Positions 9,209-35,175 of a DNA stretch of 64,000 bases are shown here, in pieces. The translations under genes were made by a program, and so were the position numbers. The notes beneath the pieces are model-generated. The model had not been told where the DNA came from. It saw nothing but the letters and a program-made list of their open reading frames with translations, and did not search any database. How positions within the stretch are numbered: position 1 is the stretch's first letter; each line of letters starts with the position of its first letter. This DNA comes from Tomocerus qinae (lineage: Eukaryota > Arthropoda > Collembola > Entomobryomorpha > Tomoceridae), in contig CM034548.1 of assembly GCA_020055645.1 (NCBI GenBank), forward strand, positions 29,066,201 through 29,130,200, in the 5' to 3' direction.

Positions 9209-12200
9209 TTATTGAACAAATGGACGGAGATTTAGAGCTCTGGTAGCATCGCAAGGGACGAAAGGATTGCTGTAATTGCAAAACAATTAATTCGTTATTC
9301 AAAATTTCTTTTTCATATCTACAACAATTGAAATAAGAATGGAAAATCTTAACTGAGGAATAATTATTGTGCATTAACGGTTACCTGGAAGAAGATACCA
9401 AGAAGACATTTCTTGAGGTTGATGGTTGCTGACTGTTTTGACAAATGATATCTCCCAATGTCCTTTTTCTTAATTCTGTTAATTGAGCAGATGTGAAGCT
9501 TCCAGCTTGACCTCCATGAGTAAAGAAGAATCTATCTCCGAATTTAAGTCTGGCGAATTGGACACCCTGTGCAATTGATAACGATCAAATCAGATGAATT
9601 TTCAGTATTTTTCATGATTTACTTTGGAGATGCATCGTCTCGTTGATCATTCAATCCAATTATACTTTATGGTATAGTATTATTACTACTATTATTATAA
9701 AACATGTATGGTTCTCCAAATAAGCTTTAAACAAAAGAGCAACAAACCTTAATGCAGTTGAAAGTGGGTCCTGAAATTCCTCCAGGGACTGGAGCCTCGA
9801 TAAGACCGCCAGTGAAAAAATCAATGTCATTGGGAGTTAATCCCAATTGAGAATAAACATTTACAACTCTAGTCCATGCATCGGCCCGAACTTCAACTGG
9901 CCTTGAATTCCAACTGGTGATGGGAGCCAATCCACAAACGTTTCTGAACGCATTGTAACCAGGCAGTCCGTGGTCTCGACCTCGCTACACATTTTTGTAG
10001 AATTTCAAATAAAAATATCGCAATATTTGAAATGGAATAATCAAAATTGTGTTCACTATAAACCTGAATATTTCTTGCGACTAAATCTGATCCAAAGTTC
10101 TGATTCTGTGGCTTAAAGAGGAAGTTTCTGACGTCATCGGTAACAAAAGGATCAAATTCTTGGGAGTTCTGGGTCATCAAACCTCTTAAGATCCAGTCAT
10201 ATCCTTGACCGTTACTTTGGGTTATCTATTGGTAGATTTTATTGAAAGTTAAATGCAACCAACACCTAACAAAAGAAAATCATGACCTTTTGTTTTGTCC
10301 TAAATACCTGTGTGGACTGGAAGTAATGGTCCCGAATTTGGTATGAACCAACATTTGCATTATTATTATTTACTAATCGAACAATCCCGTTGATAAGGGT
10401 GTGGCCAAAACGATAAGCTGCTGTTGCAAAACTGTTGATAACTGAAGGGTTAATGGATGCGTCGTATGTGGAATAAGAATTTCCCAAAGTCAATCCATAT
10501 TCTTGCATTGAATCCGGTCCCAAAATTATTGGAAGGTATTCGTTGTAAGTAATTTGTTGAAGTTCAGCACCAATAATTCGTCTACATTTAAGAATCCAAA
10601 GAAGTGTTTTAAAGATTTCAGGGAAACCAAATATCATCAGATTCTGGTGGGACTTCAATCCACGTCGATTTAAAGGGAATCGTCATCGAAAGGGATTTAT
10701 CGTCATACTATATCTATGAATATTTATTTTCGGTACCTAGTTTCTTGGAAAAGCCTTTCATCATCCCATGATGGAGCCAATTGTCTTAGTCCGTCAGCGA
10801 TTCTGTTGTGTTCCATAATGAAAACTAAAAATGAAACGATAAAAGATTTACCAAAAGGCATTTGTTTTTTCAAAGTAATTAGCAATATGTTTTCCATACA
10901 GCGAATTCTGAAATACTCAATGGTCCAATGTTAGAACGTGTTCTTATTTTACGATACATTGCAATTTATAATTACGACCTACCATTATGCATAACAGCCA
11001 GGGCAGGCATTTCATTAATTCTGTCATCTCCAGCAACAAATGTGCCTTGAACTTGTACTCCGATTGCATTGCCAGTGGGAAGAAAACCAGTGAGACCATT
11101 GGCGTTTGTCCTTAAGCGACCTGATTAATGGTAATAACAAAATATGTTAACGCCATAATAATATATCTTTATGAAATGATATATTTTATTGATATTAATA
11201 AGAATAGATTTTGAATTTTTCGTCACTTAATATATATATTCACAAATCATTGGACAAATGTTTATGAATATTATGATAATGAAACACATTTTATGATGCA
11301 TAAATTGGACTAGAAACTCATTTTACTTACCTCCACTAAATGATCGTAGATTTTGAGTTCTTTGGGGCGATGATCCATAAATTTGGGAGGCATCAATAAA
11401 ACCAGTGTTTACATTGATTTGTTCTCTTGCTCCGGTTGCTGTTGGATTTATTTGAACATTTAGTAATAAATAAATAACTTTTCATTTTTAAAGCACCTTT
11501 TGTGAAGTGTTTAATTCTCTGTATTAAAATGTACACAGAATAATAATAGTAAGGATTTCTAACAACCATACTTGCAAAGCACCATGGTGTCGACCGAGTA
11601 AAGTCCATGCATCCAGTTGGATTTCTAGAAGAATAAAATGGATCGTTAGATGGGACAGGGATTACCCAACAGTCAGGATCACTCTGCCCGGCACAACATT
11701 GTCTGTCTGAAATGAAAATATTATAATTTATTATTGTAGATTAATTTTTTTTATTAGCCATTGGATTAATTATCTAACGCATTACGTACCTAGCTAAATA
11801 AAAATTTCCATAAATGACTTACTATTTTCTGGTGTAAGAGAAATGTCGTGGTCAAGAAATTGTCCAAATTGGGGGACCATATTTGTGATAAACGGATTGG
11901 CAACTAAAGAATCAGGGTGAACGGCATTACTGATGACTCTGGCACTTGGAAGACGAGATCTCTGTCTTCCTCCACGGGGAACATCAGCGCCGTCATCGTA
12001 AGCTGGATTGACAACTCTGGCTAGGGGGGAGGGGGCTGAACCCCATCGGACGTTCCTCAAGTTGTTACATGTACCGTCCTGGGTTCGGAATTTGGATGAA
12101 GCTATGCAGTTAGTTTGGGCTTGCTGACAAGCTTGGGGAAGAGCTTGGCGAATTTGTCTGAGTGCAGTGTGTCTGTCCAAATTATGCCTGCGAAATATTT

Positions 12201-13254
12201 AAAAACGATTAAAAGGGGCGGGTGGAAGAGATTTATTAGGCCATCTACAGTAGGCGGAAAGAGCCAGGGCTTTACATGTCCTTTGTGAGAAATGATTTTA
12301 AAAAATCATTGTCCCCCAACTACTCATGGGGCCTCACTACTTATGCATGGCCGAAAACTTGGGTAGCGTACTGTATATATAGTATTGTCAATAATAAATC
12401 AGTTAGCTTCCGTGGAAAGTTTATAAAATTAATTCACATACTCTTGCGTCAAGATATCAAAAGTGGTCTTCTGAATGTGGCCAAGTCTTCCAATGGCCTC
12501 TGACTCTGGGGTAGATTTTGTGCCCCGTCTTTTGGATGATTGTTGCCCATTCACAGTTTGGTTGTACAACGTTTTGTCATACTCTTCGGTTGCAATCTGT
12601 ACAAAATTAATGAAAATCAATAATTATTATTTATAATTATTTCCTACTAACGCTCTCGCGTCTATAGGAAACTTTTTTCTTTTTGGAATATTAATAATTT
12701 TAATAATTTCATTCAAGTTTGGACACGCTTTCTTATTTAAAAAATATTGTCGTCCTTAGAGCTATGTAGTGGAATATGAGATAAAAGTATTTTTTGTTTA
12801 GTATTAGTTTAGCTGCATTTATTTAGAGAAGCCAGTAAAACTGGGTATTTATAAAGAAAAATAGGATATTTACGCTGTAAAATGTTTTTACCCATACGTT
12901 AACATAAACGAAAAATTGAAGTGGATTGAAATTTTTATTTAACTATTTTCAGACATTCAATAGAATTCTATGAATTCTTTCATTGGATAGATTAAATTTT
13001 ATCTAGTGTCTAATTTAGTATTTTAATTTCGAAAATTGCAAAAAAATAGTTATTAACCTGGATGGCTTTGGTCACAATTTCAAGATATTTTGTGTCGTCT
13101 TGAGCCGCACCGAAACACACTGCTGTGCTCAGTATGCAGAAAATTATGAAACCCCTGAAAATAAATAATCGGTTAATGTACTTATATCAATCGGGGTCTG
13201 TTGATAAATATATCCTATATTGTTAGAATGTGTGTAATTAGACTTTAACCTCAT
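9209..13254 (-). CDS. Secreted animal heme peroxidase, copy 1 (chorion-peroxidase-like)
   Basis: Thirteen minus-strand exons: 13250-13254, 13058-13154, 12442-12596, 11823-12187, 11572-11706, 11331-11438, 10983-11120, 10737-10824, 10308-10581, 10064-10225, 9748-9984, 9385-9566 and 9209-9269, giving 668 aa with every phase agreeing. A signal peptide starts [20 protein letters not shown]. Family landmarks follow in order: [16 protein letters not shown] with the distal histidine (about residue 199), REQIN with the catalytic arginine (about 257), [31 protein letters not shown] with the proximal heme-ligand histidine (about 424), [11 protein letters not shown], and a C-terminal tail with NPFVPC. 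Such enzymes use H2O2 to oxidise tyrosines or halides, for example in eggshell or cuticle cross-linking; that role here is inferred from the family. A TATATAAA-like motif lies upstream near 13385. Confidence 0.92.
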
Positions 13255-14988
13255 TTTTGAGTCTTCCACTGATGAAATTCCTGTACTACAAGAAAAATCG
13301 GGACAGATAATTTAGAAAGAACTATACTGTCAGGCCACGATAGGCTGTACGGATCTGTTGGCTAAAAAATCTTTTAAGCGTATTTATATAAATCTCAAAA
13401 TTGAATATGGATTGTGGTTTTTCAATAACAATGTTTGAGATGAGAGAGATGAACTGCACAGCTAACAATGAGTTAACTTTGAGGCATTTGTACAGAAGTT
13501 AAAGTTATATAATAGCAATAATTTATTACTTGATCATGGACAAACTAATGCATGTAAATTACATCGTTAATACCAGGGAAAAATTATAAAGGCGATTTGT
13601 GTCACAGTTCTTCCCAGATTTACATTTATAATTTCTACCTATATATGCGTATAATCTGGGCAACCACCTTGAAATACATACTAACTCCATTTTTAAAGTT
13701 CAAAACTTTAAATTAAATAAGAATTAAGATTTTAATGAATTATTGACACTTTCATTGGATTTGATTTGATCTGAGGGAATAGGAAAGTTAATCAAATTTT
13801 AATCAAAAATTCTGAATTCAAAACTGATTATTCATACATCTATGATTTGCAGGTAAGAAAAGACTACAATTGTCTCATTTCCCATCCCATGATATAAATT
13901 GGCAAATAATGCAAACGTCAATGCTTTAGTAATTTAGCTAGAGGTCCAAAATGGTTACATTATCCATCGAAATACTGTCCAGAGTGATCAATGGCCATTC
14001 GGAGAAAATGTTTGTGTATTTGTGCCTTTTTTATTTTTGCATATAAAATATTTGATGTACCGTCGTATAATATTATTTGACCCAGACATAAATTTGAGGA
14101 TGGCTTGTGGTTGTAACATACTTGTTAAGCAACTGTTTGATTGTCAATGTCAAAGAGAAATTATTAGGACGTAAAGGTGGAAATAGTAGAGTAAAACTGG
14201 AAATGAGTATTTGACGCTGTCAGATTATAATTAATGTATTTTTATTGCGTAATAGAGCAAATGGTTTTTGTTACATAAACGTCATTTGTAGCAGATATAT
14301 CAATATTATACTATATATGACTTCATTATATTTGGGAAGAAAAATATGTACTTAATTAAGCATACAAATACGACAATTCCCTAACCGTACATATTTATCC
14401 ATTGACACAGGGATTGGAATTCAATTTAAGTTTAAATTGCCTTATCAGATATTAACAGTGGATTATCGACATGAATTAATTCATGCAAAATAGGAAAAAT
14501 GCGTACTGAATTAAGCATACATATAAAACAATTCCCTAAAATTGTATATTTGTATAATGACAGGATTGGAATTCAATTTAAGTTTAAATTGTCGTATTAG
14601 TTATTAACGGTGGATTAATGACATCTAGTTTATGCAAAATAAAAAATATTGCATCTAGTTTTGTGCCCGTAAATAAAATGTTTTGACAATTTGAAAAGGA
14701 ATATGATGCTATACTATATAATCCAAGGACAAAGCAAACAGATCAATAGAAATACAAGCACAGACGCTGTGAAACAAATGTAGGAAAGCTTCAATCTGCT
14801 ATCACAGCAGGACCAACATCCTCAGAATTTATTACTATGTTTTATTAAATATCATTTTTCACCTTAAAAAACTATGCTTCTCAACTTTTTATTAGTCAGT
14901 TTGATGTATTACAAATTTACAGTTAGCGTTTTACTTACACACAACATGAACATATAGAAAATGAGTTTTAAAATACTTAGGATTCAAT
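13255..14988. other. Spacer between the two peroxidase genes
   Basis: AT-rich, without coding signal. It should hold the promoter of copy 1 and the 3' end of copy 2, and contains the direct duplication at 14341-14650. Confidence 0.5.
14341..14650. repeat. ~150-bp direct duplication
   Basis: Two adjacent diverged copies share AATTAAGCATACA, ACAATTCCCTAA, GGATTGGAATTCAATTTAAG and TTTAAATTG in the same order. The first begins about 14341 and the second about 14495. Confidence 0.75.
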
Positions 14989-17900
14989 TTAGCCCCATTG
15001 ATATATAAAGGGACGTAGATTTAACTTTCTGCTGGCCTGAAAACAACTCACAAATGGGTTGCTGTAATTGAAAGACAAAAGTTTGAATTATTACACACTT
15101 ATTTTTTGAGTCATTCTAATATGTATGCTCATTTTTAAAGCTTGTTAGAAATGTTTTATCTTGTAAAATATTTGTAAATGGAAAATAACTGTTAACAAAT
15201 TTTTATTACATATTGAATATACCTACCGTGATGAAGATGTAAGGAAGACATTGTTAGAAGTTGAGGGCTGCTGACTGTTTTGACAAATTATATCCCCTAA
15301 AGTACGCTTTCGCAATTCTATAGCTTGAGCAGGGGTGAAACTACCGGCTTTATTTCCATGGGTAAAGAAAAATCGATCTCCAAATTTAAGCCTGGCAAAT
15401 TGGACACTCTATTTTACAAAATAAAATTAGTTCAATTGATTTCTTCCAATAAAAATCATGGAATATGAATTGTTACGTTTTCAAAAGCAGTTCAAAACTT
15501 ATTTCGGTTAAACAAATATGCCATATACCATAATGCAGTTAAAAGTGGGTCCTGTGATTCCCCCAGCGACTGGATTCTCTATAAGACCCCCAGTAAATAA
15601 ATCGATATCGTTAGGGGTTAAACCCAGTCCTAGTAATTGATACACACTTTGTACCCTGATCCAAACATCAGCCCTAATTTCATCTGGTCTTTGAGCCCAA
15701 CTGGTAATGGAAGGCAATCCACAAATGTTCCTGAATGTATTATAGTCGGGTAAACCGTGGTCTCGGCCCCGCTATAAAATTTTTGAAAATCTTTTCATTA
15801 TGACCTAAAGAAATTGTTAAGAAATTTAAAAATCCCAACCTGAATATTTCGGGCAACTAAATCAGATCCGAAAGTTGCATTTGGTTTTTTAAATAAAAAG
15901 TTTCGAACGTCATCGGTGACAAAATTATCACATTCCTGGGAATTCTGAGCCATTAGACCTCTCAAGATCCAATCGTAACCTTGGCCATTACTTTGGGTCA
16001 TCTATCAGCATTAGAATGTTTTTCAGCAATTGTAATTACTTACATGAAAAGCTAAAAATTTGCCAAGATTCATTTTTACCTGTGTTGACTGAAAATACTG
16101 ATCCTGAATTCGGTATTGTCCAACAAATGCATTTCTATTATTTACTAATCGAACAAGACCATTGATTAGAGAATGGCCAAAACGATAAGCTGCTGTAGCA
16201 AAACTGTTTATAACTGAAGGATTAACGGTTTGGTCGTAGGTGGAATATGAATTCCCTAGAGTCAATCCATATTCCTGCATTGAATCCAATCCCAAAATTA
16301 TTGGAAGGTATTCGTTGTAAGTGACTTGTTGCAGCTCTGCTCCGACAATTCGTCTAAATAATGTATAACAGAAAGGAAAGATGAATGTATATACTATTAC
16401 ATGCCATATAACATATTTAACATAATAATACATACTTATTACAGATGTCATGTTATTATTATCTTTAATTTGAATACTTTTTGTTCCATTCACACTGCCA
16501 ATAAATCACTAAATGTTAATATCAATGGAACAACAACTTTAATGGTAACGTTAACTTTACTGCATACCTAGCCTCTTGGAAAAGCCTCTCGTCGCCCCAT
16601 GAGGGTGCTAATTCTCGCAGTCCGGCAGCGATTCTATTGTGCTCCATGATAAAAACTGGAAAATATAGTTAAAGAATAAATGCATTAATTACTTTTGAGA
16701 AATACGACACGAGTAAATTTATATATATTACTATATTGGGATTTAACGTCGATCAAAATAAATCTGTTCTATCTTCATCAACATAACTTCAAACTTTTAC
16801 ACTATAGTCATGCAAAAATTTCACTTACGATTATGCATTACAGTAAGTGCCGGTGTCTCATTTACTCGGTCATCCCCAGCAACAAAAGTCCCTTGAACTT
16901 TAACCCCGATTGCTTGACTTGTAGGGAGAAATCCGTTTAGACCATTTGTGTTTGTTATTAAGCGACCTATTTATTTAGTTTAAACAGAGAAATTGCGTTT
17001 TTATAATATTCCATGGCGTCACATAATATGTGCGTCATCGTGTGGTAAAAGCATTCGAAAAGCAAATTAAAAATTGTAGATTATGTGCATCAAAATATAT
17101 TTAATATACAAATGATAGTAAATTGAAGCACGTGGCAAGAAAATGTAAGGTTATACCTCCCCTAAACGTGCGTAGACTTTGAGTTCGTTGAGTTGAAGAT
17201 CCGTAAATTTGGGACCCATCAATGAAAGCTGTATTCATATTGATTTGCTCTCTTACTCCAGTGTCTAATAAATGTTTTAAAAAATCTATTAAATTAGAAT
17301 AAATTTAAATGGATTCGAAATAGAAAATTCGGGAAATTTGCAAAATTTTGTTCAATGGATATTGACAATAAGAATCAAAAATGAGATTTAGTTAAAAAGT
17401 TATTGATACTTTGTAACTGCCTTTAATTTTCGTTCTTTTCCTTGGCAACAATTCTTTTCTACCTAGGTTTAGAAAAAACAAGGACACCCGGATTGAATTT
17501 CCATCACTGGTACCTACCTGCAAAGCACCATGGTGTCGATCGCACAAAATCGATGCAAGTTTGAGGTTGTGGGGATTGAACCATCGGATCGTAGCTGGGG
17601 ATTGAAATAGTCCAACATTCAGGATCATTATTGTCTTTACAACATTGTCGGACTAATAAAAAAGGCCAATTTAATGTTCATAATTGAAGGCAATAAAGCT
17701 GCATTTATGTGCAAGATAAGAAGAAAGAATAAAAATCAATGTGCAGTCTTAAATGAAATTGTTTTAAATTGTTTCCACGTTTCTTACTGTTTACGTGAGT
17801 GAGTGAAATGTCGTGATCAAGAAATTGTCCAAACTGGGGAACCATATTTGTGATAGATGGATTGGCAATGGCAGCATCAGGATGTATAATATTGCTGACA

Positions 17901-19019
17901 TCACGAGGGTTTGGTAGACGAGATTCTTGTCTTCCTCCGCGGGGAACGCCAACTCCGTCCTCATAAGCCGGATTTGCTATTCGGGTTAAGGGTGAGGGGG
18001 CTGAACCCCATCTAACATTTCTTAAGTTGTTGCATGTACCGTCCTGGGTTCTGAATTTGGAAGATGATTCACAATTTGCTGTATTTTGTTGACAAACTTC
18101 TGGAAGAGCTTGTCGAATTTTTCGACGTATTGTGTGATTATCGTTTCTGGAATATTTATTAAGTTTCAAGTAAATTATGGCTCCTATACATTATAGTTGT
18201 CCAGAGCTAACTGTGAATTCAGTCTAAAGCATGGTTTTATTTTTCAATGTTATAATAATCTAATACTACCAGTTAGTAAGTTTTAACTTCCAAATATACT
18301 CAAAATAATTACATTCGTATGTATTACAGTTACATGCTGGATAACGATATTTTAATATTATCCTATTAAATCTAGGAATAAATAGTGTCAGAACGAAATT
18401 AGTACTTACTCTTCTGTTATTAGGTCAAATCCAGTTGTTGGTATAGAAAAATCACCAATTTTATCAGTGAATCCCAATTCTGAATACGATTTAAATCCAT
18501 GAGTAAACGACTGTTGGTTACAGATAACTATGTTAACAATACAATTGCTTAATTTTTTGTGACAAGTTAAGAATACAAAAATATGTGACAATCGTTTTGA
18601 TTAACAGAAAAATGGATTATGGTGCAAATATGAATTAATTATTTTTTTATGAAAAATCCTTTTCCCTTTTATTTTAAAAACTGTCCTGAGATGCTAAAAA
18701 TTTTCGTATCAGTACTTACTAGTAAATTTGATAAACAAGAAATGAAAATGCAAAAAAATATAAAATAATTCAATACGTCACAACTTTAACCATAATTTGT
18801 AGTAGTTAATTTAAAAAAAAAACAATTTCCTTCAACCTGATTTCTTTCTATCTCGGTTTCGAAATTCTTTTCGTCGTTGTCCTGTATTCCATGACAAGTT
18901 TTGGCTCCCAATAAGCAGAAAAGAAAATAAAATCTGGAAAGGATATACTAAGATGTATTATATAGATCTAGTGAAAATAAAATCAGTAAATTACTAAATT
19001 AATTGTAACCTAACCTCAT
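14989..19019 (-). CDS. Secreted animal heme peroxidase, copy 2 (tandem paralog)
   Basis: Minus-strand exons: 19015-19019, 18837-18933, 18410-18510, 17788-18146, 17518-17652, 17157-17264, 16829-16966, 16568-16655, 16080-16353, 15840-16001, 15529-15771, 15227-15408 and 14989-15061, giving 654 aa. The signal peptide begins MRFYFLFCLLGAKTCHG. All family landmarks are intact: [10 protein letters not shown] (distal histidine about residue 179), [37 protein letters not shown] and [11 protein letters not shown]. It closely resembles the gene at 9209-13254, with the same number of exons, many of identical length (97, 135, 108, 138, 88, 274, 162 and 182 nt). The region before the catalytic core (third exon) has diverged most. 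The two genes therefore arose by tandem duplication and both look functional. Confidence 0.92.
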
Positions 19020-21848: not shown

Positions 21849-22600
21849 GTAGTTATGACCTTCTATATTCAACATGAAGGTAAATAATTTCGCGTCATTG
21901 GACGACACTACTGGCAGATCTATATGGATAAAGTCATACACTCTTGGGGAAAAAAATTGTCCTTGGTCGAGGACCAATGCTATTTTAGAATGCCCACAAT
22001 TTATGGCATTTTGAGTAAAAATAAAAATATCATAACATTCGAAAGTAACGGTAGATAGTGGATGTATATCCTATGGACTTAAAAAATGGCTATAATTATA
22101 TCATTTATGTCGAAAATTATTAGGTTCCATCTCCAGTAAAAGTCGTTCTAATATGTTGGTAGATAGTTATGAATGTGGACTTAAATCAATATTTGTATAA
22201 CAACAACTACAATAAAATTCCTTTGGATTCATTATTATTACCCACACAACACATGTTTGCATTTATTACATTTAGCGCATGATGCATGTAGTCATATTTT
22301 ATCCATAATGTCTTACCGTATTACTAATACCTACATTTGCGATATGCATCATTAGTAGTAATCAAAAGTAGAATCGAATCCGATTTGATTTACTTTTTTG
22401 CATCAAAACTGCGTCTGCTCATGCGCGAACAAGAAAATCGTATCGTTCTCATCGGAATTTTTTGTATCGTCTCCTGGGACGATTTAGATTCGGATTAGAA
22501 AGATTTTGCATGGAAAATCGCAGGTTGTAGTGTTAAAGTGCGGAATCAGCCCAGCCTAACGAAATTTTGCTTTTCGGAGTATCAAATCCTTTAGTTTTCG

Positions 22601-23920
22601 ATGACCACAAGAAGGAGTAAAAAAATTATGAACCCGAAACCAATTCCAGTCAAGTTTAAGTGGACAGAAGACCTAAATAACCGAATGGCTGACTACATAA
22701 GAAAGTATTACAAGCAATATAAAGTAAGTGATGATAGGGAATTCATCAATTCTATTGAAGTTTTTAAAATTGTGAAACTATTTTAAGAAAACTATTATTT
22801 ATTCTGCTTCAGAGTCAACAAAAGGTAATCTTTGCAAGAAAGATGAAAGAATCTTTGAAATTGGAAATAACCGACCTGCAAATGAAAAACGCACTAGACT
22901 CTTTGATTCGAAAATACAAATTTGTGAAAGGAAAATTGGATTCTTCTGGTTTTGGCGTAGACAAGGAGGCCAACTTACAAGCTGGTAATTTTTTTTTAAT
23001 GAGAGCCATAACATAATCATAATTTTTTAGATATTAGCATAATCATTTGTTGCATTAGTAATTTTAGAAATCATTTTTTATTTTAGGTTGGATACTCAAA
23101 AAATGTCCTCAATTCGAAATCTTGGATTCTGTAATGTCAACAAGACCTAACATTACTCCCCCGTTCATTGTTGAATCAACACAACCAATTAACAAAGAAG
23201 AAGATGGCTCTGATTCTGAAATGGCAAGTTCTTAAATTAAATGAAAAATGTTTTAAAAGCTATGTAAATTCTAACTTAATTTAACAAAGCATTCCTTTTA
23301 CAGATTTCCAAAGAAATACAAGAAGCTTCGGTTAATGAAAATTTATCTGATGATTCAAAGCTAGTTAATTCAGATGTAGATATAAGTGAGGATGAACACG
23401 AAGACAATCAACCCGATCTGAAAACATTCGTTCGTAGCAGTTTTTCTGGAATTGGCGTAAAAGTGGAGCCTGCTATTAAAAAACAGAAAAATTCCCTGAA
23501 TTCCTTTGCCGATGTCATCAGTGAAAAGCTAAGTAAACAGGCAGACGCAGAAAGTAAAAAACTTGCTTTTGAGGAGCAAAAGTTTGAGTATACAAAAATA
23601 ATGGACACATATGGACACAGACACAACAAAACCCACGATTTAAATTTGTACAAGGTAAACATTTTGATTTATTAAATTGCCGTAAAGTTGCAGTTGAATA
23701 ATTTAAATTAATTATCAATGTGTTAATACAGTTACAGCTGGACAAAGAAATAGCATTGGAAAAGCTGACATCTGAAAAGGAAATAGCGCTTGCGCGACTA
23801 AGCACCGAACAGGAGATTGCTACTGAAAAATTGAAGCACGAGAAGCAGACCTGGGAATTCGAATTAAAGAAAATTCAGTTACAGATAGAACTTGAAAAAG
23901 CAAAGTCAAACAAAACATAA
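22601..23920 (+). CDS. Harbinger Myb/SANT-like DNA-binding protein
   Basis: Exons 22601-22723, 22813-22984, 23087-23223, 23304-23654 and 23732-23920 give 323 aa. In PIF/Harbinger elements this partner protein helps carry the transposase to the nucleus and to the element ends. Residues about 10-90 form a Myb/SANT trihelix-type domain (FKWTEDLNNRMADYIRKYY, then SLIRKYKFVKGKL). The middle is acidic. Residues about 262-323 form a long charged coiled coil with repeated KEIALEKL-like heptads. The third intron uses a GC donor (ATG then GCAAGT at 23224); reading through it would stop within four codons, while exons 4 and 5 stay open in the matching phase. Confidence 0.85.
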
Positions 23921-24002
23921 TTTATTTAACCTCATAAGTTAAAAAGATTGCTTTTCAACTGAAACTTGCGGTCCAGATTAATAAAAACCGACCAAAGAAA
24001 AT

Positions 24003-25275
24003 TTAGTTTTGCATACTATTTACTATTTCGCATAGAGCGGACCGTTTTAATTCGCCTTTTCTATTTATCGTTGTATGATTTTCATTTGGCTCAGGTTCAT
24101 TGTCAGCTTCTGTGTAAATGAAGTCATCGGGTTCATTCCAAGGGTCGAAATGCATTAAAAAATTGTGGAGAATGACGCATGCCTGGATCCACTGACAAAC
24201 TTTCCTGTGGCCGTCTTCTAAATCGACGTTAATGCGCAGTCCTAATAAGCTCTGGAAACGACCCTTTAATATTCCGATAGTTTGCTCAACATAGATTCTT
24301 TTGCTGGACAAGTGCCGATTAAAAACAGCTTTCGCATTGTCGAGATTGCCATTTGTTCTTTTATAGGGTACCACGACCGTTTCAGATTTTGCATATGCTG
24401 AATCGCCAATTATGAATTCGCCATCACTAAAATACATAAAAGTTTGACGAACAAGGGGACAAGAATTGAAAACTTTTGAATCATGCACGCTTCCAGGATA
24501 ACCAGTAGTAAAATGGCGTATAATTTTGTTGTGGTCGCATACAACTTGGAAATGCATACAATATTTTTTTTTCCTTGACCAGTAAGTTTCTTTTTCTTCA
24601 GACGGAGCGTGGTAAAAAGTGGCATCCGAGCCGTCGACAAATCCAACGCATTTTGGAAATAAATGTGTTGCCATTTCTGATCCAAGAGCCTTTCTTTCTG
24701 CCACATCCGGCCATCTAATCCACTTTTTACTTAGATTCGTTAGGGCTGTAATCACTCTATTTGTGTAGTTATTAACGGAGCCTTCACTTATCCCAAATTT
24801 TGCAGCAATTATACGTAGGCTTGCTCCATTTCCATAAGATCCTAGCTCGGTTAAGGCAACTGCTAATTGTATTATTACTTCTGCTTGCATGTCTGTAAAT
24901 ACCGGATCTCCTAATCAAAATAATAATATTTTAAATATTTTAAATTATAGATCGGGGTTTAAAAATGGTTTATAGAATAGATTTTTAATTTATCCACCTA
25001 CCTTTAATTTCATCCAACAATAAAAAGAACGATGTTCGACTCATTCTTAAATGTTGACGGAATCTGAGATCATCGTAATTGAATAACACGGTCTCTAAAA
25101 AGTGACTGCTTTTTGGAACTACTGTTCTTGGAATAGAATATCTATTTTCCAGCAATGTGATGATAAGTAATAAAATATCCTCGTCACCAAGAATTTGATG
25201 CTCAATTTTAGATTCACAAATATCGTATAAACCTACCATTAAAGCGAAATTTAAAACGTCTTGTTTTTCTCCCAT
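24003..25275 (-). CDS. PIF/Harbinger DDE transposase
   Basis: Exons 25002-25275 and 24003-24910 give 393 aa. The enzyme cuts and joins Harbinger element ends. An N-terminal helical region is followed by a helix-turn-helix-like stretch (LRIIAAKFGISEGSVNNYT). The RNase H-like catalytic core follows with an intact triad: Asp in GFVDGSD (about residue 184), Asp in IIGDSAY (about 261) and Glu in YVEQTIGILKGRF (about 300). The block GYPGSVHDSKVF is typical of HARBI1-family proteins. There is no stop or frameshift. The splice joins IKG to DPVFTDMQ, recreating a block usual in the family. The domesticated HARBI1 gene is an alternative, but the TIRs and partner gene argue for a transposon. Confidence 0.93.
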
Positions 25276-25461
25276 TTTAGCTAAGCTATTTAGTAGAATA
25301 TCAATACTTTTGCTATTGAATTTTTGAAAAAGTCCGCCCTGGATTTAGTTGTCGAATTATTTTAATCAGAGCACTCAAAAGCTATGTTCGATTCGATTCA
25401 TTTTCTTCAAATCTGAATCTAAATCAAATCCGATTCGATTCTACTTTTGATTACTACTATT

Positions 25462-32366: not shown

Positions 32367-32560
32367 AGTATTTTACTGATGACGCCAGCGTAACTTTACC
32401 GTTGCCCATCCTCTATGTAGTTATAACGCTGATTATATTGCATACAAGACCTGCATGTGACCTGGCATTTTTACTCCTCATAAATTATGATTTAATTTTC
32501 CTGCATTGTTTATTAAACTTGGTACTTGCCTCAACTGAGAGGGACCATTGCTAGTTTGAA

Positions 32561-32740
32561 TGGATAAGTGACACTTTGTATATGCAAAAATGCAAATGGA
32601 TATCCCGTATATGGATAGTGACAACTTGTATATGCAAAAATGCAAATGGATATCCCGTATATGGATAGTGACAACTTGTATATGCAAAAATGCAAATGGA
32701 TATCCCGTATATGGATAGTGACAACTTGTATACGCAAATG
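32561..32740. repeat. 50-bp minisatellite, ~3.4 copies
   Basis: Exact or near-exact 50-bp units start at 32581, 32631 and 32681, each containing TGCAAATGGATATCCCGTAT and GTGACAACTTGTATA, with partial copies on both sides. Open frames across it are an artefact of the repeat. Confidence 0.95.
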
Positions 32741-33480
32741 TATATGTTGTATATGCTCTTAACATGGATTATTATGATCATAAACATGATTATTAATACA
32801 CTAGCAGGTCACAGTACCTAGGCCCTATTATAAATAAAGCTAGTGTGTATTCCGGGGGGCAATATTGTACGAAGAGACGAAAGTATTTCAGATGCACAGC
32901 TTTTTCTAATTGAACTTTTCATGATTGCTCATTTGGTGGGTCCGCGTTGGAAGTAGAGATTTTACATTGATAGGCATAGGGACTTTTGTTTTAGAAAACT
33001 GTCCGTATTTCCGGATAGGGAGGAGGTACTTGGCAAGTGTATTGTCTTGTATCATAATTAAAATAAAACAATGTAAATGGCCACATTTTAAATTTTCCCG
33101 CACATGAAATAATAGGAACCTTAAGCGAACCGAAAGCTGGTAATATTTGCATACAGAATACATGAACTACTTTGTTATGAAATACACGGACTTGTTGAAC
33201 TTTACCATATTTAGGTAACGTTTAAGATTGGGTTCTGCTTAGCTGTGTTATCAGAGCGGCAAATTAACACACGATGATATAAACAAAACATACCTACGGA
33301 ATTTTTCACTGCGCAACACGAACAACACGATTATACTATAGAGTAATTACTATCCCTTATATGTATATTCATGCGTTTGCATTTGTATTAATCTTTTACT
33401 TCATGTCAATAATCCATGCTAAAAGAGCATATAAGGGATATCCATTTGCGTATACAAGTGGTCACTACCCTCATATACGA
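32700..33480. mobile_element. Inverted-repeat element with minisatellite in one arm
   Basis: The segment 33409-33480 is an inverted copy of about 32700-32772: GGATATCCATTTGCGTATAC, then GTGGTCACTACC, matches the complement of the minisatellite unit, and both outer sides share ATCCATG(C/T)TAA followed by AGAGCATATA. A spacer of about 640 bp separates them. A non-autonomous transposon with an arm expanded into a minisatellite is the likely explanation. Confidence 0.6.
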
Positions 33481-33749
33481 AATGATTCATACAAGTTATC
33501 CGGATATCATTTTGAATGTCGTCGATACATGCAATTTCGAAATCATCATCGGAGAGATTACTTCTCCCAGTAATATCATTTTCATCGTAGGATATATTTA
33601 GCAGTTCTTTACAATTGTCCATTTTTTAACTATGTACGATATTTGTTATATACTCGAGTTTTACACCCTATTCGGCTCGATTTGCTGGACCAAGGACGAA
33701 ACTACACATTAGCAATACAACCGAATTTTCGTTTGAAATGAAAGCATGT

Positions 33750-34135
33750 GAAAAACTGACTTAATGAAGAAAATGGAAGCTTACTTAATGAAAGAAAATG
33801 AAATCTGACCTAAAAGAAATAAAAACTGAATGAAGAAAATGAAAACTGAATTAACGAAAGAAAATGAAAACTGAATTTCCGAAAGAAAATGAAAACTGAA
33901 TTAACGAAAGAAAATGAAAACTGAATTTCCGAAAGAAAATGAAAACTGAATTAACGAAAGAAAATGAAAACTGAATTAACGAAAGAAAATGAAAACTGAA
34001 TTAACGAAAGAAAATGAAAACTGAATTAACGAAAGAAAATGAAAACTGAATTAGCGAAAGAAAATGAAAACTGAATTAACGATAGAAAATGAAAACTGAA
34101 TTAACGAAAGAAAATGAAAACTGACTTAAGCAAAT
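33750..34135. repeat. 25-bp minisatellite, ~12 clean copies plus degenerate ones
   Basis: Unit GAAAGAAAATGAAAACTGAA plus TTAAC (or TTTCC) repeats every 25 bp from about 33830 to 34133. Diverged copies extend left to about 33750. Confidence 0.95.
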
Positions 34136-34169
34136 TTAGTTTTGACTTTTTGGTTGAATTAAATTTAGA

Positions 34170-34350
34170 CTAAACCGTATAATAAACGATTTTTCGGTAA
34201 AATTTAATTTGTATTTGACTGAATCGAATTAGATCCGACATTTTCGGCTAAACAGTTTATTTGACTGAATCAAATAAGACCTGACATTTTCGGTTAAAAC
34301 ATTTAACTTGTATTTGATTGAAATCATTAAAATCCGACTTTTCGGTTACC
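34170..34350. repeat. Degenerate ~55-bp repeat
   Basis: Recurring blocks TATTTGACTGAATC, GATCCGACATTTTCGG and variants appear about three times directly after the 25-bp array. Confidence 0.6.
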
Positions 34351-34754
34351 GATTGCATTTAATTTGTTTACCAAAAAATGTTGTTGTAATTAGTTGTACC
34401 CTTATCGAAACATGATTTTCGGCCAAATTAAGCTCCTTTTCGACCAAGCTCACAAAACTGCTTTCTTTTAAAATTTAATTAACCAAATGGCATTATTTTA
34501 TGACTAATGCATACAATGCCCTGACTATCGTTGAAATAATTGCGATCCTTTATGAGTAAACCTCTTAATTAAAAATCAACTGTATAAACAATAACATTCC
34601 TTTTTTTATAAAAACTTAAAATTCATGATTTTAGATGGCATTGCGTTCTTTATGAGTAATCCTCTGAAAAACCTACTGTGTCGTCCAATTATAAACGTTT
34701 CTGTCACCCTCGGGTTTAGATTGCTCGAATAGTTTTGGAATTCAGGTCCGCTTA

Positions 34755-34925
34755 GACTCAATAGAATATTTGAATTTCTGCTGGTTCGGCTCGGTTCGAC
34801 TCAATAGAATATTTGGATTTCTGCTGGTTCGGCTCGGTTCGACTCAATAGAATATTTGGATTTCTGCTGGTTCGGCTCGGTTCGACTCAATAGAATATTT
34901 GGATTTCTGCTGGTCCGGCTCAGAT
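34755..34925. repeat. 43-bp minisatellite, ~4 copies
   Basis: Unit containing GACTCAATAGAATATTTGG and TTTCTGCTGGTTCGGCTCGG, with copies starting at about 34755, 34798, 34841 and 34884. Confidence 0.93.
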
Positions 34926-34944
34926 CACCAACTCGCTCGGATTT

Positions 34945-35175
34945 ATTTAAAAATCTGGTTCTGTTCTCTCGAATTATTTTGGATGTCGGGTTCGGCTCGC
35001 TCGAATTTATTAAAAAATCTGGTTCGGCTCTCTCGAATTATTTTGGATGTCGGGTTCGGCTCGCTCGAATTTATTAAAAAATCTGGTTCGGCTCTCTCGA
35101 ATTATTTTGGATGTCGGGTTCGGCTCGCTCGAATTTTTTTGGATTTCGTGTTCGGCTCGCTCGAATTTTAGAGGG
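34945..35175. repeat. 64-bp minisatellite, ~3.5 copies
   Basis: Unit containing TCTCTCGAATTATTTTGGAT, GTCGGGTTCGGCTCGCTCG and AATTTATTAAAAAA. It shares the GGTTCGGCTC core with the 43-bp array next to it, so one probably grew from the other. Apparent proteins across it are repeat artefacts. Confidence 0.93.

Follow-up and report, generated by a model that had tools for sequence, protein, structure and literature searches.

A probable Pangu-type (Harbinger2) transposon and its short derivatives in the collembolan Tomocerus qinae

A 64,000-nucleotide stretch of the genome of Tomocerus qinae (assembly GCA_020055645.1, contig CM034548.1, positions 29066201-29130200; hereafter the window) contains an element that resembles a two-gene Harbinger transposon but is flanked by ATT. 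This raises the question of which group of transposons the element belongs to, and whether it or its relatives have moved recently. We conclude with considerable confidence that it is a young two-gene cut-and-paste element of the Pangu type (Harbinger2), from a recently mobile family accompanied by a swarm of short derivatives.

The element, a complete DNA transposon of 3,105 bp, spans window positions 22354-25458. The arms of its terminal inverted repeats (TIRs), at 22353-22392 and 25420-25459, are 40 nt long and 98% complementary, with one mismatch, in agreement with the repeats of about 38 bp described at these ends in a first-pass annotation made from the letters alone. The outer 27 nt of the TIR occur twice in the window, both times exactly (up to three mismatches were allowed), and not at all in 100 shuffles, and the element scores 36 as an inverted repeat, whereas none of 300 random 3,105-bp stretches from the window scores above 14. 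When nine symmetric boundary pairs were tried, only 22354/25458 yielded a matching 3-bp flank, ATT on both sides, as had been read in that annotation. No second copy of the element was found within the 64-kb window.

Target sites and group assignment

The PHIS groups are defined by their target-site duplications in the survey of Han et al. 2015 (PMC4482050), where TWA denotes PIF/Harbinger and ANT denotes Pangu, which is the Harbinger2 of Repbase (PMC12730594). In the same survey, AT denotes ISL2EU, with YqaJ as its second gene, CWG and C|TNA|G denote Nuwa (NuwaI and NuwaII, respectively), and Spy is described as inserting at AAATTT with no duplication and having one gene (PMC4482050). Both flanks of the window copy read ATTA, such that from this copy alone the duplication could be shifted to TTA if the ends were asymmetric. 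With a transposase of the same superfamily (PF13359), the element would then be a canonical PIF/Harbinger transposon whose true TWA duplication lies one base off ATT.

The other copies decide between these readings. Searching the T. qinae genome (a 334-Mb assembly of 115 contigs) with the element gave 168 matches (141 candidates, 40 scored), and all counts given here are lower bounds. Pairing the ends at the loci listed with a left end provided 40 pairs, or 42 with the outer ends of two hosts of nested insertions; a 405-bp fragment without TIRs (L011), a locus where only one TIR was found (L017) and the second element of L026, for which no right TIR was found, were left out. Perfect 3-bp duplications flank 40 of these 42 insertions and, oriented by the element, read ATT (20), AAT (16), AGT (1), AAA (1), TGT (1) and AGA (1), giving ANT in 37 of the 40 and TWA in none. 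A one-base shift of TTA cannot account for AAT or AGT, which refutes that reading, and the symmetric ends fit ATT only. Moreover, a second family in this genome, family B below, is flanked by TAA in four of five copies and by ATA in the fifth, so that TWA is detectable by the same approach, yet does not appear in the window family. We therefore consider a canonical PIF/Harbinger identity highly improbable. The ATT flank, which had been annotated as a small oddity, is rather diagnostic, since ANT defines Pangu and TWA would define PIF/Harbinger. The base preceding the duplication is a pyrimidine in 39 of the 40 cases and the base following it a purine in 36, so that insertion favours a palindrome-like Y|ANT|R site.

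Empty sites, which the first-pass annotation had named as a check, were searched for within the retrieved family loci, and three paralogous ones were found, namely for L031 (AAT, with one other substitution), for L026 (ATT, exact) and for a derivative nested in L010, where the empty site AAA is read in five other near-full copies. A weaker candidate for L024 contains indels and is not counted. The matches for L018, L029, L030 and L039 merely reproduce the occupied junction and were rejected, as was the nested case in L027, which fits poorly. The precision of the empty sites, together with the 10-12 bases flanking paired copies, which, the duplication itself aside, vary between copies, leaves a practically negligible probability that the copies arose by segmental duplication and not by transposition; nothing was found in favour of that origin.

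By the published target-site definition the family is Pangu/Harbinger2 and not PIF/Harbinger proper, for which TWA is given (PMC4482050). The first-pass annotation had proposed an intact Harbinger transposon with two genes, which stands except that the group within the superfamily is, by its target site, Pangu/Harbinger2. Indeed, beyond the ANT target, the likeness to Pangu as described by Han et al. extends to the ends, which start with AG (AGTAGTAATC; AG or GG is usually first in Pangu), to TIRs of 39-40 nt, at the upper limit of the published 11-40 bp, and to a length of ~3 kb (the mean for autonomous candidates is ~3,487 bp) (PMC4482050). It also includes the pairing of a DDE gene with a second gene in which a motif is not easily recognised. 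Pangu elements mostly have two genes, and the second is said to contain no known motifs in the results of that paper, but Myb/SANT in its discussion; arthropods are among the published hosts (PMC4482050). The swarm of ~430-bp derivatives and the Y|ANT|R preference go beyond the main-text description of Pangu (PMC4482050).

The remaining groups differ from the window element in the defining features. The 3-bp duplications and the lack of YqaJ in gene 2 set it apart from ISL2EU, the presence of duplications and of two genes sets it apart from Spy, and the CWG and C|TNA|G duplications of NuwaI and NuwaII are not the pattern of the insertion set. A further likeness exists to rice Ping/Pong/mPing, in which a DDE transposase has a Myb-like partner and an autonomous element has miniature relatives (PMC2836001). 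In addition, ANT is reported as the target of IS5 (PMC4482050). Bacterial IS5-type transposases belong to the same superfamily as the transposase of the window element and share its invariant D, D and E, but are only 23-32% identical to it, over 28-59% of its length, in 20 plasmid records. We know of no IS5-type insertion sequence with a second gene of the gene 2 kind.

The two genes and a possible mechanism

The transposase of 393 amino acids is encoded on the minus strand by 25275-25002 joined to 24910-24003 across a 91-bp GT-AG intron, which was picked for its consensus-like donor from many frame-keeping GT/AG pairs. It matches PF13359 (DDE_Tnp_4) with an E-value of 5.3e-38 and 130.6 bits (cut-off 24.8), and its catalytic residues D184, D261 and E300 align with the invariant D, D and E triad in four bacterial transposases of the IS5 type, one of which is a fragment. 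This confirms the three catalytic acidic residues noted previously. HTH_Tnp_4 scores 15.4 bits against a cut-off of 27, leaving no second recognised domain, as in Pangu/Harbinger2. A search of PDB sequences with the transposase and the gene 2 protein gave nothing convincing for either, and an alignment-free structure prediction of the transposase exon was unusable, with a mean predicted local distance difference test (pLDDT) score of 34.9. No relative was found among viral contigs (searched with the transposase, the IS5-guided alignment, gene 2 and the TIR), among genome contigs (transposase and TIR) or in a phage collection, from all of which records of this or nearby genomes may have been omitted.

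Gene 2, on the plus strand at 22601-23920, comprises five exons and encodes a protein of 323 amino acids that is open once four introns are spliced. It is convergent with the transposase gene, and one candidate AATAAA per strand lies between the two stop codons. The GC donor of its third intron is the same in all six copies compared and is thus a trait of the family, and not decay of the window copy. The whole protein has no match in Pfam, and hence no YqaJ. Where an uninterrupted Myb/SANT gene had been annotated, the frame is indeed open after splicing, but it is divided among five exons and the Myb/SANT similarity stays below the Pfam threshold (scores below).

If the element works as Ping/Pong and Harbinger3 do, its gene 2 protein would bind the inverted ends, with the Myb/SANT-like N-terminus as the probable contact, and could also recognise subterminal words such as GATTCGATTC, a word with two copies close to the right end and a single inverted copy at the left end. 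The gene 2 protein would then bring the DDE transposase to the ends of the element, and the transposase would excise it and join it to a staggered cut around ANT within a YANTR site, a joining that would leave the 3-bp duplication. Such a division of labour between the two proteins is suggested by rice Ping/Pong and zebrafish Harbinger3, where both proteins are needed; the Myb-like protein of Harbinger3 binds to the TIRs and also interacts with the transposase, which depends on it for nuclear localisation, and excision of mPing is usually precise (PMC2836001).

Copies, derivatives and activity

Near-full copies lie at six or more separate places, including the window, and the other five differ from the window copy by 0.16-1.3%, which provides the near-identical copies elsewhere in the genome that had been named as a check; many short copies are also among the matches listed. 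The window copy and L006 are separated by 5 substitutions in 3,084 aligned bases, whereas L007, L008 and L010 are mutually 1-3 bases apart in ~3,000 (0.03-0.10%). These two sets differ by 1.0-1.2%, and L009 differs from both by 1.2-1.3%. A divergence of 0.03-0.16% between copies at different places indicates that the family was mobile recently and, together with the empty sites, upholds the recent activity proposed in the first-pass annotation at the level of the family. The same observations bear on the idea that the locus is a domesticated host gene pair derived from such an element, for which there is precedent in the documented co-domestication of both Harbinger genes in insects (PMC9710019). 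Domestication is marked there by the absence of TIRs, target-site duplications and near-identical copies (PMC9710019), whereas all three are present here, making this origin extremely improbable.

Among the six near-full copies, only that in the window has both frames open together with the transposase ATG. L009 also has both frames open, but reads ATA at the transposase start; one gene is broken in each of L006 and L007, and both are broken in L008 and L010. The one-base coding indels of the other copies sit in homopolymer runs, and L007 has four homopolymer indels yet 2-3 substitutions relative to L008 and L010, such that some of these indels may be assembly errors. The loss of 22 bases in L008 is not of the homopolymer kind. 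Silent and residue-changing codon differences between the window copy and L009 number 3 and 10 in the transposase and 6 and 7 in gene 2, which is too few for inference.

The window copy itself carries several private changes. The residue following the catalytic E is Q301 in this copy and H in the five others, and across 33 aligned rows (one hand-typed, several near-duplicates) Q occurs at this position in the window copy only, the others having R, N, H or C. An 18-bp stretch of gene 2 and one residue change in gene 2 are likewise private to it among the six, so that its private coding substitutions number two, one in each gene. Relative to L006 there are four codon differences, all residue-changing, two of which are private to L006. 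The Q beside the catalytic E, the 18-bp stretch and the private residue change in gene 2 would fit a passenger, that is, a copy with weak or dead products that was moved by another member of the recently mobile family. We give this somewhat less than an even chance, as the reading frames of both genes are open and their splice sites conserved; in addition, Q may be tolerated, since the position following the E varies widely among homologues.

Among the matches listed, 35 derivatives of 380-663 bp carry the ends of the element. Their first ~198 bp are shared with the element in all 35 cases (mean 97.4% to the window copy) and their last ~113 bp in 34 of the 35 (mean 93.9%), with the right-hand match running inward at ~80% in several copies in the genome search. 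The core of ~117 bp, examined in L013, gives no close alignment to the full element. Eighteen derivatives are exactly 427 bp long and differ from one another by 1.8% on average, ten pairs by less than 0.3%; eight others, of 382 and 415-417 bp, form a more divergent set with a mean difference of 3.7%. We consider that the derivatives were very probably moved in trans by the proteins of the family.

The core of L013 (L013:699-816), the only one that was folded, forms a near-perfect hairpin with more than 20 bp per arm, with a DNA folding energy of -27.7 kcal/mol (z -8.5; none of 200 shuffles as stable). At L029:501-1350, two derivatives stand 7 bp apart, the first without a matching 3-bp duplication.

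A bolder reading is that this Pangu family is still moving, and that working proteins of the window copy, with their Y|ANT|R preference, drive an ongoing burst of the ~427-bp hairpin derivatives. We regard this as speculative and rather unlikely. If true, the family would be a Pangu counterpart of Ping/mPing and a direct sign that targeting of ANT is linked to this lineage of transposases. A 2015 survey counted 34 Pangu families in 15 genomes, of which two were potentially active, that is, with both genes intact (PMC4482050). A literature search by title and the opening of the abstract, with most subscription journals outside its coverage, found none among the papers listed that deals mainly with an active Pangu element. 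A young copy with both genes, accompanied by dozens of precise insertions and by miniature derivatives of its own, offers a good substrate for studying the choice between ANT and TWA in this superfamily, since a TAA-making family resides in the same genome.

Relatives in the genome and local setting

A search of the same genome with PF13359 gave 151 matches (423 candidates, 150 scored), and trees were built from the 30 best loci less L072. With at least 151 matches to PF13359, the host is rich in Harbinger-like elements; most of the matches listed are without internal stops, and they include repeated near-identical copies of other families. The later tree, of 30 rows and 247 columns, adds L078 and L079 to an earlier tree of 32 rows, from which a frame-broken copy of the window family, a long IS5 row and two close relatives of L046 were dropped. 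The window family forms a clade with L074 and families C (L065/L066) and D (L078/L079), with support of 86/91 (82/83 in the first tree), a grouping that is no more than suggestive; we treat C and D as sister families of the window family. Families A and B group together at 98/91, apart from the window clade, and a third set also stands apart. We take families A and B to resemble HARBI1, and the third set to resemble ISL2EU or Spy.

Like the window element, families C and D (L075/L076 and L078/L079) are ~3 kb long and show an ATT duplication, seen in the single complete copy of family C and in one of the two family D copies. They have a related DDE domain as well as a related segment of gene 2, around CP..LD....N..PP. 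The segment is matched by phmmer at 1.4e-6 and 2e-6, within a set of four sequences only, and by hhalign at 92% over 34 columns; family A yielded no match of this kind. Their TIRs, however, are other than those of the window element (AAGGGTACTCACT and AGCTTCACTCAG). In family A, ATT flanks two distinct two-ended copies, namely L064 and L058, the latter being the same locus as L081. Only the right end was found for L054/L080, and no end for L055 and L056.

Several observations weigh against the assignment to Pangu with a Myb/SANT-like partner. Three perfect duplications out of the 40 depart from ANT (AAA, TGT and AGA), two of them belonging to derivatives nested in family members (L010:4475-4854, AAA; L027:877-1303, TCT), and two of the 42 flank pairs are mismatched (the first element of L029, and L036). 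The N-terminal part of the gene 2 protein scores 16.4 bits against the Myb/SANT-like PF12776, below the cut-off of 23.6. The clade uniting the window family with C, D and L074 reaches only 86/91 in the own-genome tree, with long branches flagged, and the other copy of family D is flanked by TAT. Finally, the ATT-making family A falls with the TAA-making family B (L068-L073). Since family A groups with B, ANT is not confined to the window clade; duplication type and transposase tree may disagree, or ANT may be ancestral.

Table 1. Features of the Pangu-type element, in window positions
Feature	Position	Strand	Basis
Left target-site duplication, ATT	22351..22353	.	Symmetric boundary test; ANT pattern of the family
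Left TIR, begins AGTAGTAATC	22354..22392	+	Inverted-repeat and TIR searches
Gene 2 (probable DNA-binding partner) exon 1, donor GTAAGT	22601..22723	+	
Gene 2 exon 2	22813..22984	+	
Gene 2 exon 3; the intron after it is GC-AG, with donor GCAAGT at 23224	23087..23223	+	
Gene 2 exon 4, with in-frame 18-bp stretch missing in the five other near-full copies	23304..23654	+	
Gene 2 exon 5 and stop	23732..23920	+	
AATAAA, candidate polyadenylation signal of the transposase gene	23921..23926	-	Sequence
AATAAA, candidate polyadenylation signal of gene 2	23980..23985	+	Sequence
Transposase exon 2, DDE domain (D184, D261, E300) and stop	24003..24910	-	PF13359
Transposase intron GTAGGT...GATTAG, 91 bp	24911..25001	-	Splice-site choice
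Transposase exon 1 with ATG	25002..25275	-	Frame and copy comparison
Additional subterminal copy of the TIR word GATTCGATTC, perhaps bound by a protein	25390..25399	.	
Right TIR	25420..25458	-	Inverted-repeat and TIR searches
Right target-site duplication, ATT	25459..25461	.	Symmetric boundary test

The element lies between exons of animal haem peroxidase and the open reading frame (ORF) of TRRAP. The peroxidase exons (PF03098) comprise three ORFs on the minus strand at window positions 11794-18169 and belong to at least two genes, since two of the exons match the same start of the Pfam model. The TRRAP ORF (Tra1_ring, PF20206) occupies 42.0-46.8 kb of the window. Several kb before it, at 32560-35169, is a cluster of tandem repeats with units of 50 bp (3.6 copies), 25 bp (15.5 copies), 43 bp (3.9 copies) and 64/128 bp.

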